From positions 1 through 25,822 of the IMG/VR virus record IMGVR_UViG_3300011252_000263: DNA of 25,822 nt, one strand, 5' to 3'. Shown here piece by piece: positions 1 to 25,700 of this stretch. Numbering within the stretch: position 1 is the first letter of the stretch; each line of letters opens with the position of its first letter. Below the pieces are notes generated by a model. That model worked only from the letters and a program-made list of their open reading frames with translations, did not search any database and was not told the origin of the DNA. The position numbers were made by a program, and so were the translations under genes. The DNA comes from a virus.

Positions 1-81
1 CTCGCGGCCGCCGCCAATCTGACGAAGGTCTAGGACGTAGTCGCCGTTCCTTTTCGTGATGTTGTCTAATTTCTTCCTCAT
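1..81 (-). CDS. 5' end of a small early-type phage gene (truncated by window edge)
   Basis: The ATG at 81-79 follows a strong purine-rich ribosome binding site (AGGAGAGAGAGAC on the minus strand). The frame stays open for 27 codons to the edge of the window, so only the N-terminus is seen. It begins MRKKLDNITKRNGDY and is basic and polar. It is the third gene of a leftward cluster of tiny genes (572 to 1) whose ribosome binding sites are almost identical. A hairpin (101-121) lies just upstream, overlapping the end of the previous gene. I do not recognise a family. The start is well supported by the RBS; function is unknown. Confidence 0.6.
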   Translation of the reverse strand, partial: MRKKLDNITKRNGDYVLDLRQIGGGRE

Positions 82-572: not shown

Positions 573-617
573 TGTCTCTCTCCTGATCTGCGGATGCCCC
601 ATCAGCGGGTCACCCTT

Positions 618-659: not shown

Positions 660-717
660 AAAGTAACTAAATGACCTTCTGATTAAATTCGGGGAAAAAT
701 AATTGGCAGTTGAATGC

Positions 718-752
718 AAAAACCCCCCCGATCCTAAGATCGAGGGGTTCTA
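718..752 (-). terminator. rho-independent terminator at the end of the late operon
   Basis: On the minus strand ACCCCTCGATC and GATCGGGGGGGT form a long stem around UUAG, followed by UUUUU. The U-tract appears only in this orientation. It lies downstream of the last late gene (994-1308) and beyond the attP-like region, so it would stop late transcripts before they enter the leftward small genes. Confidence 0.75.
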
Positions 753-759
753 AGAACAC

Positions 760-872
760 CGCTAAGTGCTTGATATTAAATGGTGCCGGCTAGAGGATTC
801 GAACCCCTGACCCCCTGATTACAAATCCGTGGAAGGTCTTGCCAAGCCTCGTTTAATATCAAAGGTTTAGCG
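760..872. other. probable phage attachment site (attP) built on a tRNA-Thr 3' end
   Basis: Positions 781-828 read, on the minus strand, as the 3' half of a tRNA: anticodon loop with UGU (Thr), variable region, T arm containing GGTTCGAATCC, acceptor strand and encoded CCA. The 5' half is missing: sequence beyond 828 does not pair with the anticodon stem or the acceptor strand. The fragment is flanked by inverted repeats, CGCTAA-N4-TTGATATTAAA at 760-780 and its inverted partner at 852-872, with the 11-base TTGATATTAAA part perfect. The left arm abuts the CCA end. A tRNA 3' fragment with flanking arm-type repeats is the usual form of an attP used by a tyrosine integrase. No integrase gene is present in the window. 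Confidence 0.75.
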
Positions 873-960
873 TTCAAACCATTCGATCAAAAGACAAAGA
901 TGATCCTACAGGGGATTTTCAAAACTGACAAGGGAATAATTTGCAGGAATATTTTGGCAG

Positions 961-993
961 CGCCGGTCCCTACTCAGTAGGTCGCCTCCGGCG
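961..993 (-). other. stem-loop directly after the last late gene
   Basis: Nested inverted repeats lie between the stop codon at 994 and the attP region: an outer CGCCGG/CCGGCG pair and an inner CCTAC-TCA-GTAGG hairpin. No U-tract follows on either strand. It may be a 3' end stabiliser or a weak terminator. Confidence 0.4.
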
Positions 994-3283: not shown

Positions 3284-4243
3284 CTATGCCACCGTGCAAA
3301 TTGTGCCGTCGATTTCGGTGATACGCATAAACGCGTTACTCCACGATGTTGCCGGGCCGCCTTGCGCACCCGCGTTACCGTAAACGTAAAGCTGATATGT
3401 GTGAGATGACGTGTCGCCAGGTTTTATCAGCGTCTCAATGTACATGGGGTTCATGAAATTCTGTGACGAGAAATAACTTTCTGTGACATAATCGATAGAA
3501 CCCGAATCAGGGGCAGAACTCTCGCTTAACTGAGAGCCGTCCTGGAAAAGTTTAATCATCGTGTACACATTTCCAGCACAATTAGGGTTGTAGCCGCGGG
3601 CGTAGCCTTGAAACAAAAGAGCGTTTCCCGCTGACGCCAATGTGTGCGTGATCGACCAGCCGGTCGGCAACACATCACCGTTGATCGTCGTAGACGAAAA
3701 ATCCCCCAGGGCTTTTTGGTTCATCGAAATGGTCCGTCCGCCGCCCGCCGCGTCTTGAAACGTCGGAGCCGCGCCGGCGCCGTTCGAAGTCAGAACCTGG
3801 GATGCGCTACCCACAGCCACAGTCGCCGGGTTGCCTGACGTATCCCACGTAATCAACTCGCCGTCTGTGCCAGCCGCGAGATCAGCGACGTCTACGTTCG
3901 ACAAGGCGTTGCCGGTCGCGTTTGCATCAAAAGTTTTATTGGTAAGCGTGTCAGTTGAAGCTGGCCCGATGCCGCCCAGGTTGCTCAAGGCGGCGCTGGC
4001 GGTGCTGGCGCCCGTACCGCCATCAGCGACCGCGAGGTCCGTGATGCCGGTGATCGAGCCGCCATCAATATTGATGCTTGAGAGGGCTACCGTGCCGGCC
4101 ACGACGTCTGCGGTATGGCTCATCAACTCCCGCATGGCATTGTTGACATTTCCAGGCGCCATGCCCTCATCGCAATCTATGCCGCCCACGTCGGTGTTTG
4201 AGGCGGCGGTTGCCGAATAATCGTTCCAAGAATTTTTAGCCAT
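3284..4243 (-). CDS. tail fibre protein, paralogue B (319 aa)
   Basis: The first 80 residues (MAKNSWNDYSATAA through ADGGTGAS) closely match those of the fibre gene at 4541-5895, so they probably attach both proteins to the same site on the tail. A low-complexity Thr/Ser/Gly shaft follows, including the NKTF-type repeat (TLTNKTFDANATGN) common in phage fibres. A Gly linker (AAGGGRT, about residue 168) leads into a distinct C-terminal domain of about 150 residues ending in ITEIDGTICTVA, presumably the receptor-binding tip. It lacks an S74 chaperone. A terminator (4256-4279) lies just upstream, and a GAGG ribosome binding site precedes the ATG. Start is clear. Confidence 0.85.
   Translation of the reverse strand: MAKNSWNDYSATAASNTDVGGIDCDEGMAPGNVNNAMRELMSHTADVVAGTVALSSINIDGGSITGITDLAVADGGTGASTASAALSNLGGIGPASTDTLTNKTFDANATGNALSNVDVADLAAGTDGELITWDTSGNPATVAVGSASQVLTSNGAGAAPTFQDAAGGGRTISMNQKALGDFSSTTINGDVLPTGWSITHTLASAGNALLFQGYARGYNPNCAGNVYTMIKLFQDGSQLSESSAPDSGSIDYVTESYFSSQNFMNPMYIETLIKPGDTSSHTYQLYVYGNAGAQGGPATSWSNAFMRITEIDGTICTVA
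4004..4243 (-). repeat. fibre N-terminal module, copy B
   Basis: Codes for about 80 residues shared with copy A at 5656-5895. Protein identity is high in SWNDYSATAA, RELMSHTADVVAGTVALSSI, NIDGGS, TGITDLAVADGGTGAS. Synonymous codons differ widely between the copies, so the duplication is old or the copies came from different phages. Confidence 0.85.
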
Positions 4244-4255
4244 AAGCCCTCACAC

Positions 4256-4279
4256 AAAAAAACCCGCCAGAGGCGGGTT
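4256..4279 (-). terminator. rho-independent terminator before fibre B
   Basis: On the minus strand AACCCGCC-TCT-GGCGGGTT is followed by a run of seven T. It lies between the stop of the 82-aa gene (4303) and the ATG of fibre B (4243). The base of the stem and the following TTTTTTTGTG(TG)AGG are also found before fibre A. Confidence 0.85.
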
Positions 4280-4551: not shown

Positions 4552-5895
4552 TTGCGATCTCCTTCTTGAGAGTTTCAACTTCAGCAGACAATTCCTGCAC
4601 GGCACGCACCAAAACAGGCACAAGTCTTCCATAGAACACGCTTCTAGTTTTTCAGGGTTGTTTTTGAGGACAAGATTTAGATAGTCGTCAGCACCGGCAT
4701 CGATCTGTGCTTCGTCTAAATCTTGTGCAATAAAGCCAGCTTCTTGCTCACCGACTTTAGCACCATCTCGCATGTTCCAAGTGAACTTGACGGGCTTCAG
4801 CGTGTTTATGAAATCCACGCCAAGAGGCAGTTCTTCGATGTCTTTCTTGTCACGACGATCTGATAGACTAGAGATGGTCTGTACTGCACAACGCAGAGTT
4901 GTTATTGCGTAACTACCTAATGTAAACTCGTTCGATACTGTGGCAGTACTGGCTTCAGAATCATAGCCAATGCAGATATTATTAGCACCACCAGTTACGT
5001 TCTTACCTGCGAGCATGCCGACAAAAACATGGCCGTTCCCGGTTGCATTGAGCGTACCGCAGTAATAACCGAGAGCAGTATTGTTGTTCCCAGTAGTCGT
5101 GTTAGAAGAGGCTAACCTGCCAACGGCTGTATTATTAGCCCCTGTAGTAGTATTAGATAAACTAGTATGGCCGACTGCTGTATTGGCATCCCCTGATGTA
5201 TTATCTTCAAGAGCATTATAACCAAGAGCAGTATTTCTATTAGTGGTGCCATCGTCGCTGGATAATGCATTTGTACCAAGACCAACTGTCTGTCCAGATG
5301 AGTTGGTTATACCATCACTTAGCCCATTGATGTCAGTAGCACCACCACCACCGGCAGCTTCCCACGTCATGCCGCCAGTATTGCCCGACCGGGCGGTCAA
5401 AATGTAGCCGTCGGACGGCGAGTTGCTCACCTTGAGGTTGTCTTCATCAACCACGTTACTCGCAATCACGGTCGCGCCGTCGGCGCTTGATGTCACCTCG
5501 CCCGAATGATCTGGGTGGGTGTAGGTGGTCGCGGCATTTTGGAACGTTGGCGCTGAAGATCCGTTACTCGTTAATACCTGCCCGGACGACCCGACCGCCG
5601 TGACGCCAATTGCGCTCGTCCCGTTGCCGAACAAAACACCATTTGCCGTCAGCGTGCTGGCGCCTGTCCCCCCATCGGCGACCGCGAGATCTGTAATTCC
5701 GGTCACAGATCCGCCGTCGATGTTGATCGACGACAGGGCGACTGTCCCTGCGACCACGTCCGCCGTGTGGCTCATCAACTCACGGACCGCGTCGTTCACG
5801 TCAGACGGATTCATCGTCTCGGACGTGTTCACGTTGCCCACGTCGGTGTTATTTGCCGCCGTCGCGGAGTAGTCGTTCCAGCTATTTTTCGCCAT
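4541..5895 (-). CDS. tail fibre protein, paralogue A, with frameshifted S74 chaperone
   Basis: Residues 1-80 are the shared attachment module. Residues 200-312 hold imperfect repeats of the NTALGYNAL...NTTTGANN type, forming a beta-rich shaft. From about residue 345 (SDRRDKKDIEELP) a Peptidase_S74 intramolecular chaperone starts; this domain normally trimerises the fibre and cuts itself off. After EKLEA (residue 419, 4641-4639) the frame runs into unrelated Cys-rich sequence, while the -1 frame continues as VFYGRLVPVLVRAVQEL and then VETLKKEIANGK, stop at 4541, the expected end of an S74 domain. So one base is missing near 4638-4644, or a -1 shift occurs. The coordinates assume the shift. Terminator and GAGG site lie upstream. 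Confidence 0.8.
5656..5895 (-). repeat. fibre N-terminal module, copy A
   Basis: Partner of the copy at 4004-4243; see there. The region just upstream is also alike in the two copies: terminator stem, TTTTTTTGTG and AGG before the ATG. Confidence 0.85.
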
Positions 5896-5905
5896 TTTTC
5901 CTCAC

Positions 5906-5927
5906 AAAAAAACCCGCCGGCGGCGGG
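5906..5927 (-). terminator. rho-independent terminator before fibre A
   Basis: On the minus strand CCCGCC-GCC-GGCGGG is followed by seven T. It lies between the stop of the 671-aa gene (5952) and the ATG of fibre A (5895), so it should lower fibre expression relative to the virion genes upstream. Confidence 0.85.
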
Positions 5928-23113: not shown

Positions 23114-23327
23114 TTTTTTTGGGCAGCCTGTGTGTGGTCAGATTATTTGGGCGGGGGTGATACAAATAAAACCCGCCCCACCCGACGGCTCGAAGGGGGG
23201 GTCTCGATCGATCGGCGGCGGCCTGCGGCGGGAGAGAACGCCGGGCCAGCCGCCCCGCCAGCGCGCTTGGGATCAACCCTCACGCAGGCGGAAACGGATA
23301 CATAATCAGTAGGTCAGCCCAATGATA
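23114..23327. other. GC-rich non-coding gap between terS and terL
   Basis: This 214-base stretch is the longest gap inside the otherwise tightly packed late operon. It contains a GGGCGGG / CCCGCCC inverted pair (23149-23155 and 23172-23178), a G-run, CGATCGATCG (23205-23214), and GC-rich dyads around 23215-23260. Frames open across it encode Arg/Pro-rich shadow-like sequence. The packaging recognition or cutting site (pac or cos) of many phages lies near these genes, so it is a candidate. Not proven. Confidence 0.4.
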
Positions 23328-23804
23328 TCAATGGGTTACGTGGTCTTCGTCGGGTTCTGCTGCCATTATTGGTGCGATCGGTGGTGCAGTCGGGACGTTT
23401 GCCAGGTCGGCGACGGCGTCGAGATGCTCGCGCGCGTCGTCAACCTGCACCTGGCGCTTCTCCACCAGCAGCCCGCCCAGCTTGGCGAGGCCGAGCAGCG
23501 CCTGGGTCGCGGCCGATTGCTGGCCCGCCGCGGCGGCGGACTCTGCCGCGCGCCGCAATCCGGCTGTAATTTCCTCGATGGTGATGGCGTTTTGGTCGGC
23601 CTGTTCCGCTTTTAGCTGATCTATCATTAGGGACACATTAGGGCGCTCAAGTAGGCGGCAAGCTTCAACCCGTATCGCTTCAGCCGACATGTTGCTTGCC
23701 GCATAGGATTTCCGATACGCCTCGGACGCATTGCCCTCGCACGGCCCCACATACTGCCGGGCAAACTTCTCTTGTTTGATTGTCAGCTTCGGTCGATCGG
23801 CCAT
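23328..23804 (-). CDS. terminase small subunit (Terminase_2-like)
   Basis: The N-terminal DNA-binding part LTIKQEKFARQYVGPCEGNA followed by SEAYRKSYAASNMSAEAIRV and ACRLLERPNVSLMID is the classic pattern of this family, with a helix-turn-helix that recognises the packaging site. A coiled coil (MIDQLKAEQADQNAITIEEI) for oligomerisation and a Pro/Ala-rich tail follow. Length (158 aa) is typical. It is the first gene of the leftward late operon. A terminator (23816-23841) lies directly upstream. Confidence 0.92.
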   Translation of the reverse strand: MADRPKLTIKQEKFARQYVGPCEGNASEAYRKSYAASNMSAEAIRVEACRLLERPNVSLMIDQLKAEQADQNAITIEEITAGLRRAAESAAAAGQQSAATQALLGLAKLGGLLVEKRQVQVDDAREHLDAVADLANVPTAPPIAPIMAAEPDEDHVTH

Positions 23805-25143: not shown

Positions 25144-25563
25144 CTAAGCCCGTTTAATAGCGTACCACATCTGCAACATGGCCCGCTCAAAGTCCCGCTT
25201 CACCGTCTGCGGGTGCGATCCCACGATCCGCGCCACCCGTGACCAGGCTGGCCCACGTCGCCGCCGAACGGCGCTATGCGCCACCGCCCACACCAGCCTC
25301 GCGTCGTCCGCGTCCAGCACCCGCGCCAGTTCCAGCGCACAGTCGTAGCGGAAAAGCTCAGCCGCGTCCGCTGGCCCGGGTCGAACGTCCGCATCAGAAT
25401 ACCCGTAAGCCAAATTCACGTCGGGCGCATAATCCGGCCACGCCACCCGATACCGTTTCCGCACCACGCCCGGCAACTTTCTCTCAGTCCCAGCCGCCTC
25501 AAAAAACAAACCTGGCATTCCTGCCACGTCGCCGACGTGCCGAAGTAGTCTCTCAGCGTCCAT
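25144..25563 (-). CDS. DUF6362-like helix-turn-helix protein (139 aa)
   Basis: I start at the ATG at 25563 with GAGGTGG just upstream; a GTG two codons earlier is possible. The sequence has VVRKRYRVAWPDYAPDVNLA, then AAELFRYDCALELARVLDAD, DARLVWAVAHSAV, and the helix-turn-helix WSRVARIVGSHPQTVKRDFE followed by RAMLQMWYAIKRA. This layout (WPxY motif, acidic helix pair, DxxLVW, then HTH) matches the DUF6362 family of alphaproteobacterial phages and prophages as I remember it. It probably binds DNA. The GCGG-T5-GCGG repeats lie directly upstream of its start, so it may control itself through them. Function is not established. Confidence 0.65.
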   Translation of the reverse strand: MDAERLLRHVGDVAGMPGLFFEAAGTERKLPGVVRKRYRVAWPDYAPDVNLAYGYSDADVRPGPADAAELFRYDCALELARVLDADDARLVWAVAHSAVRRRRGPAWSRVARIVGSHPQTVKRDFERAMLQMWYAIKRA

Positions 25564-25593
25564 GACCACCTCTTACAAGGGCCAGTTCGCCAA

Positions 25594-25700
25594 GCCGCAA
25601 AAAAACCGCATTTATACTATATATAAATGCGGTTTTTGCGGTAGGTCTTGGCACGAACCGCAAAAACCGCAAAAAGGCTAAAGGCGGTTTTTGCGGTAGG
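25594..25700. repeat. four GCGG-T5-GCGG repeats and a long palindrome
   Basis: The unit GCGG-TTTTT-GCGG occurs at 25629-25641 and 25684-25696, both followed by TAGG, and inverted at 25658-25670 and, with seven A, at 25595-25609. Orientation alternates. The first pair forms a large palindrome: AAAACCGCATTTATA (25602-25616) pairs with its complement at 25622-25636 around CTATA, with CCGCA/TGCGG continuing outside. The arrangement suggests multiple binding sites for a protein, with an AT-rich centre that opens easily. An origin of replication or an operator for the adjacent HTH gene are the two best explanations. Confidence 0.7.

Follow-up and report, generated by a model that had tools for sequence, protein, structure and literature searches.

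Organisation of the attP locus

The window, i.e., the whole stretch of DNA that was analysed, is the 25.8-kb (25,822 nt) IMG/VR virus record IMGVR_UViG_3300011252_000263. Its late genes are podovirus-like and lie on the minus strand (portal, terminase, holin, and lysozyme). Two 75%-identical stretches at gene starts (4002-4260 and 5654-5912), each followed by a CCCGCC..GGCGGG hairpin, are apparently the N-termini of paralogous structural genes, and two 22-bp direct repeats (TAAATGCGGTTTTTGCGGTAGG) at 25624-25700, upstream of a DUF6362 gene (25144-25569), are operator- or iteron-like. Read in the direction of the late genes, the locus studied here runs from the nuclease gene through the H arm, a spacer, an anticodon loop, a tRNA 3' half, its CCA end, the H' arm, and a terminator to the integrase gene (int). 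The features are collected in Table 1.

Table 1. Features of the attP locus in window coordinates.
Feature	Position	Strand	Remarks
Tyrosine integrase, first 27 codons (MRKKLDNITKRNGDYVLDLRQIGGGRE)	1-81	-	Remainder beyond contig end; near-identical to N-termini of relatives' complete integrases
Third satellite, half-core copy (TGACCCGCTGATGG)	599-612	-	In int leader; close relatives only
Satellite 2, half-core copy (reverse complement TAATCAGAAGGTCA)	672-685	+	95 nt past CCA, beyond terminator, before int leader
TTGGCAG, putative integrase arm-type repeat, int side	703-709	+	Same orientation as 954-960; CTGCCAA common to both flanks
Intrinsic terminator	724-747	-	Hairpin and T run
H' arm, perfect IHF consensus TATCAAGCACTTA (763-775)	760-780	-	Begins at CCA end
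tRNA-Thr(UGU) 3' half	781-825	-	Anticodon loop 819-825 (putative 7-bp overlap) to CCA; C'-type half-core 808-821
Phage spacer, core to H arm	826-851		26-27 nt constant; sequence replaced when tRNA target differs
H arm, perfect IHF consensus TATCAAAGGTTTA (857-869)	852-872	+	Inverted relative to H'
Promoter-like TTGTCA-17-TAGGAT	903-931	-	Reads into attP; same block in near relatives
TTGGCAG, putative integrase arm-type repeat, late-gene side	954-960	+	Common to both flanks
Satellite 1, inverted half-core copy (CGACCTACTGAGTA)	971-984	-	162 nt from core, late-gene side

On the minus strand, positions 825 to 781 read as tRNA-Thr(UGU) from the loop TTTGTAA through CCA (783-781), without a 5' half. 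Neither ARAGORN nor Rfam found a complete tRNA in the whole window, and blastn against phages showed 781-826 to be 87% identical to annotated tRNA-Thr genes, bearing out the orphan 3' half, from anticodon loop to CCA, that the original prediction had proposed. The same arms surround a tRNA half in eight IMG/VR stretches found by exact pattern and in many more found by homology and, since the arrangement recurs, the presence of the tRNA half between the arms is not due to chance.

A search of the genome for an integrase had been suggested as a check, and the N-terminus of one is indeed present at the left edge of the window, where the gene starts at position 81 and reads leftwards; full genes are found in relatives. 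A PF00589 integrase is encoded by 16 of 20 related contigs, and the full integrases of relatives match both PF00589 and phrog_1. In these relatives the gene is encoded on the late-gene strand and is found on the same side of attP as the terminator, mostly at a distance of 0.1 to 1.1 kb. Close relatives have integrases that are 79% to 84% identical to that of the L027 reference. Phage and plasmid integrases, among the matches listed, reach at most about 30% identity to the clade integrase. An AlphaFold2 prediction of the integrase, made from eight sequences, gave a mean pLDDT of 51, with the N-domain alone usable; this domain is predicted, at low overall confidence, to have the strand-strand-strand-helix order of the arm-binding type.

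With a cognate tyrosine integrase present, the proposal of an attP built from a tRNA-Thr 3' half, placed where the late operon finishes and ahead of its terminator, is supported. As anatomy, the attP is near certain, and it very probably serves a temperate podovirus-like phage. Judged from the sequence, we would expect this marine bacterial virus to integrate into the tRNA-Thr gene of its host.

The inverted arms resemble IHF sites

The two arms (21 nt each, 81% complementary, and 71 nt apart) are the only inverted pair reported within 600-1100, and the left one directly abuts CCA (780/781), as the original prediction had it. Each arm holds a perfect WATCAANNNNTTR, reading TATCAA-GCAC-TTA at 763-775 and TATCAA-AGGT-TTA at 857-869, and together they account for 2 of just 5 perfect matches to the IHF consensus in 25.8 kb (with R allowed at the sixth base). 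The 13-bp IHF consensus is described with an AT-rich 5' side (PMC7581858), which the arms have as well (TTTAA), and the unconserved N4 between the arm halves is the N4 of the consensus. Both arms retain the consensus positions across approximately 23 lineages, with the first 3 N positions varying; this profile was anchored on the IHF consensus and is supportive rather than independent. C10, G14, and C15 are kept beyond the consensus, in part perhaps because in some relatives (L039, L084, L086, and L094) the arm doubles as one strand of the terminator stem. The arms are likely to be IHF sites H and H'. Their strict inverted symmetry, which had been called unusual, is not so, since either arm is an IHF-consensus site.

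The arm motif follows tRNA ends at least 120 times in viral contigs (more than 100 contigs), and, of 112 other tRNA-arm loci, 98 differ from it at no more than one position, a proportion to be read with the search pattern favouring such matches. In the form CCA-N6-26-CAANNNCTTAG, it is present in over 100 viral contigs next to the ends of Gly, Phe, Val, Lys, Arg, Cys, Asn, Leu, Pro, and Met tRNAs, providing a handy signature for unannotated tRNA-type attP or attL sites.

Could the inverted arms instead be the arm-type sites of the integrase itself, bound by its N-terminal domain, with direct repeats further out serving an excisionase? We consider this unlikely. CTTAGC is kept in the arms beyond the IHF consensus, the predicted arm-binding N-domain is in line with such a role, and RDF sites are direct repeats one helical turn apart (PMC7498355). 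However, the motif adjoins tRNA ends in more than 100 other viral contigs and also in unrelated gammaproteobacterial phages, its N4 varies as it does for IHF sites, and phage-specific repeats are placed on both sides of attP in the manner of arm-type sites. Those repeats were apparent as 7-mers in the same orientation common to both attP flanks, which number 12.0 per own locus compared to 3.4 in cross-locus controls. The words differ between phages (e.g., GGAGCA in L100, GTCGCAAAAT in L086 and L087, and GGTTGCA in L106), and the signal, clear in the family, is weak in the window, where it amounts essentially to one 7-mer, TTGGCAG. The outer direct repeats, as far as their letters go, would fit integrase arm-type sites.

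Being a 113-bp unit with 21-nt inverted ends, the element could also be taken for a MITE-like insertion that captured a tRNA half between its terminal inverted repeats. In relatives, however, the unit occupies the same location, flanked by lysis genes and int, with contents that differ while ends and flanks stay constant; the window has no second copy, and no target-site duplication is visible by eye. Given one copy in the window, the same locus in relatives, and no dispersed copies or variable insertion site, we rejected this explanation, the chance of which is negligible.

Terminator, promoter-like block, and polarity

In nearly all relatives displayed, a hairpin and T run come after the arm, no further than approximately 100 nt from the tRNA half (by eye). 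The location of this terminator just past attP suggests a role in the prophage, where it would shield int from transcription started at the tRNA promoter. On the other side, the promoter-like block is kept in the near clade and faces attP, with no gene ahead of the terminator; once the phage is integrated, transcription from this block would run outwards into host DNA. The element is thereby bracketed by a promoter-like site and a terminator, and its arms are complementary, so that a short regulatory RNA running from 931-903 to 747-724, with the arms as a stem around the tRNA fragment, deserved consideration. We find this very improbable and rejected it: pairing of the arms is lost in L028 and L030 while the IHF-type sequence is kept, the promoter block is not general (it is not kept in the L032-L037 group), and the promoter match is weak (9/12; 2 found in the data versus 0.9 in shuffles).

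The order of features also bears on the geometry of the prophage, for which the host tRNA gene had been predicted to lie beside the nuclease gene. The polarity is the reverse of that. Because the 3' half comes from the phage, integration would place the H' arm, the terminator, and int, in that order, behind the restored host tRNA, and the displaced host 3' fragment would come to lie beside the nuclease end.

Searches for a prophage and host site

No prophage, attL/attR, or host tRNA of the clade was found by searching viral contigs with a 47-mer or genome contigs with an integrase profile. The exact 47-mer of the tRNA half occurs, within viral contigs, in 2 free-phage contigs only, and the integrase alignment gave a single match to genome contigs, with 30% identity, in a planctomycete MAG. 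A complete initiator tRNA plus arm is present in 3 IMG/VR contigs, none of them with an integrase of the clade. One contig, L283, has a complete initiator tRNA-Met followed by an IHF-type arm and a terminator, which is the order expected after integration; by its integrase it is not a relative but another element.

The tRNA target is exchanged between the IHF-type arms

Integrase moves between tRNA genes have largely been reconstructed from distant comparisons. Relatives of the window phage carry halves of tRNA-Thr(UGU), Lys(UUU), Arg(UCU), or initiator Met (anticodons assigned by eye), and an integrase tree with these 4 target labels needs 9 changes, compared to a minimum of 3. Within the near clade, L024 (Thr), L026 and L042 (Arg), L028 (Lys), and L002 and L003 (Thr) interleave on well-supported branches. 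The integrase has been passed on vertically, while the tRNA target differs between close relatives.

Pairs of close relatives with different targets show which part of the locus is replaced. For L024 (Thr) versus L026 (Arg), identities are 93% in the late flank, 90% in H, 24% in the spacer, 70% in the tRNA half, 100% in H', and 97% in the terminator; the corresponding values for L037 (Arg) versus L034 (Lys) are 97%, 76%, 27%, 70%, 90%, and 94%. These segment identities identify the stretch of approximately 75 bp between the IHF-type sites as the replaced part. The simplest idea is that the new piece came from recombination with the attP of another phage; secondary att sites have also been suggested as the point from which specificity switches begin (PMC8371274). 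Having Thr, Arg, and Lys targets in an otherwise nearly unchanged attP, these phages form a natural series for dissecting target change.

Satellite copies of the half-core

Outside the arms are what we term satellites, 13-bp copies of the C' half-core of the target (3' anticodon stem plus variable loop). The direct copy is located 84 to 120 nt past CCA, and at exactly 95 nt in the near clade, while the inverted copy lies at -161/-162 or at -173 to -176. Downstream satellites match their own core at a mean of 10.5/13 positions versus 7.0 for shuffled cores (Wilcoxon P 5e-8), and upstream satellites at 8.9/13 versus 6.7 (Wilcoxon P 2e-5), P values that are indicative and overstate the significance because the lineages are related and not independent.

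The letters of the satellites follow the target. The initiator-Met phages L100, L101, and L103 have AACCTGAAGGTC, the Arg phages L026, L032, and L037 have AATCCGTAGGTC, and the Lys phages L033 and L036 have AATCAGTGGGTC; in L086, with an Arg core that reads GCCGAATGTC, the satellite is likewise GCCGAATGTC. No satellite-core match was present in L039, L087, L102, L105, L096, L047, and L049, and for several distant lineages no satellites were found. Outside the clade, a downstream copy matching at least 11/13 positions is present in just 1 of 112 other tRNA-arm loci, and that single locus (L248) has sequence of the window's phage clade.

The satellites may be extra integrase-binding sites, and the integrase would be their simplest reader, because the same protein reads the tRNA core. 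Alternatively, they could serve a different regulator as operators or be left over from earlier integration targets, a possibility that we rate as doubtful yet worth weighing. Each of L039 and L087 has 2 satellites that are alike and do not match the core, and in L034 and L042 the satellites match another tRNA better than their own core; the latter is also expected if cores change first. Against this alternative, the downstream copy matches its own core at a fixed position in 22 of 30 lineages (shuffled P ≤ 0.01), its letters change with the target in 2 separate contrasts of Thr or Lys versus Arg, and it is the protein reading the core that would have cause to follow its changes.

Taking the satellites as integrase sites, a further step is that the core-binding domain of the integrase reads them too, making the locus a target-coupled, autoregulatory attP with a tRNA cassette between 2 IHF sites. 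We put this forward tentatively, as quite possible though short of probable. If true, a change of tRNA target would oblige the phage to change its own operators. Target choice would be coupled to integrase expression, an arrangement of which we found no description in the open-access papers searched.

A related pair of motifs lies past the end of the terminase small-subunit-like gene (23303-23338), where an IHF-consensus match (TATCAATGGGTTA, 23326, plus strand) is adjoined by a perfect half-core-like copy (TGACCTACTGATTA, 23303-23316, minus strand). The pair is conserved in L006 and G001 and could serve in packaging or as a distal integrase/IHF site.

Proposed mechanism

We infer integration, IHF binding, integrase binding, and autoregulation from the anatomy, integrase, conservation, target exchange, and co-variation observed above, which could work together as follows. 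The integrase would cut at the 7-bp anticodon loop of the host tRNA-Thr(UGU) gene, and joining of the host 5' half to the 3' half carried by the phage would make the tRNA complete again. As in lambda, P2, and HP1, IHF would bend the DNA at H and H' and so place the outer, putative arm-type repeats close to the core. Transcription of the late operon in the free phage, and of the restored tRNA in the prophage, would stop at the terminator beside H'. Within the clade, the tRNA target would have been changed repeatedly by replacing just the stretch between the IHF sites, and the satellites at fixed distances would be further core-type sites of the integrase, perhaps for autoregulation of int. As a joint explanation of the locus (an attP with IHF arms, exchange of the target between them, and satellites as integrase core-type sites), we consider this scheme likely, with good confidence.

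Comparison with known systems

Two named phages, Acinetobacter phage Alexa and Pseudomonas phage UFJF_PfPro (Peduoviridae), have the same layout beside their integrases, with a similar tRNA 3' half, IHF-type sites, and two-sided repeats; unlike the window phage, they are gammaproteobacterial and unrelated, and satellites were not seen in them by eye. Their attP-like sites, at 1501-1558 in L280 (Alexa) and 1801-1855 in L281 (UFJF_PfPro), have tRNA-Thr-like 3' halves and are unannotated.

The classical attP sites of lambda, P2, and HP1 span 240, 220, and 420 bp, respectively, and use IHF as the host factor (PMC4111918, Table 1). The window site resembles them in its core with a putative 7-bp overlap, in IHF-type sites between the core and the putative arm-type repeats, and in an integrase gene beside attP. 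It differs in having its core within a tRNA half, one IHF-type site right at each side of that core, a terminator inside the P' side, and satellite half-cores further out.

For integrase autoregulation, the excerpt of PMC11963761 on ICEMlSym-R7A of Mesorhizobium reports that attP-bound IntS limits intS transcription. That element, like the one we propose, is proteobacterial, is inserted in a tRNA gene, and has repeated arm-type motifs; it differs in being an ICE at tRNA-Phe with 5 P motifs, and the same excerpt describes no tRNA-tracking satellites. In the KplE1 prophage, with IntS at argW, the integrase was shown to repress itself (PMC2951348). As in the window, the tRNA and int are co-oriented with the tRNA first, and core- and arm-type sites (putative in the window) lie near the int promoter (PMC2951348). 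In KplE1, however, it is the ordinary att sites that overlap the promoter, whereas in the window additional copies of the half-core are found next to the int leader, where they would be the elements of a putative repression.
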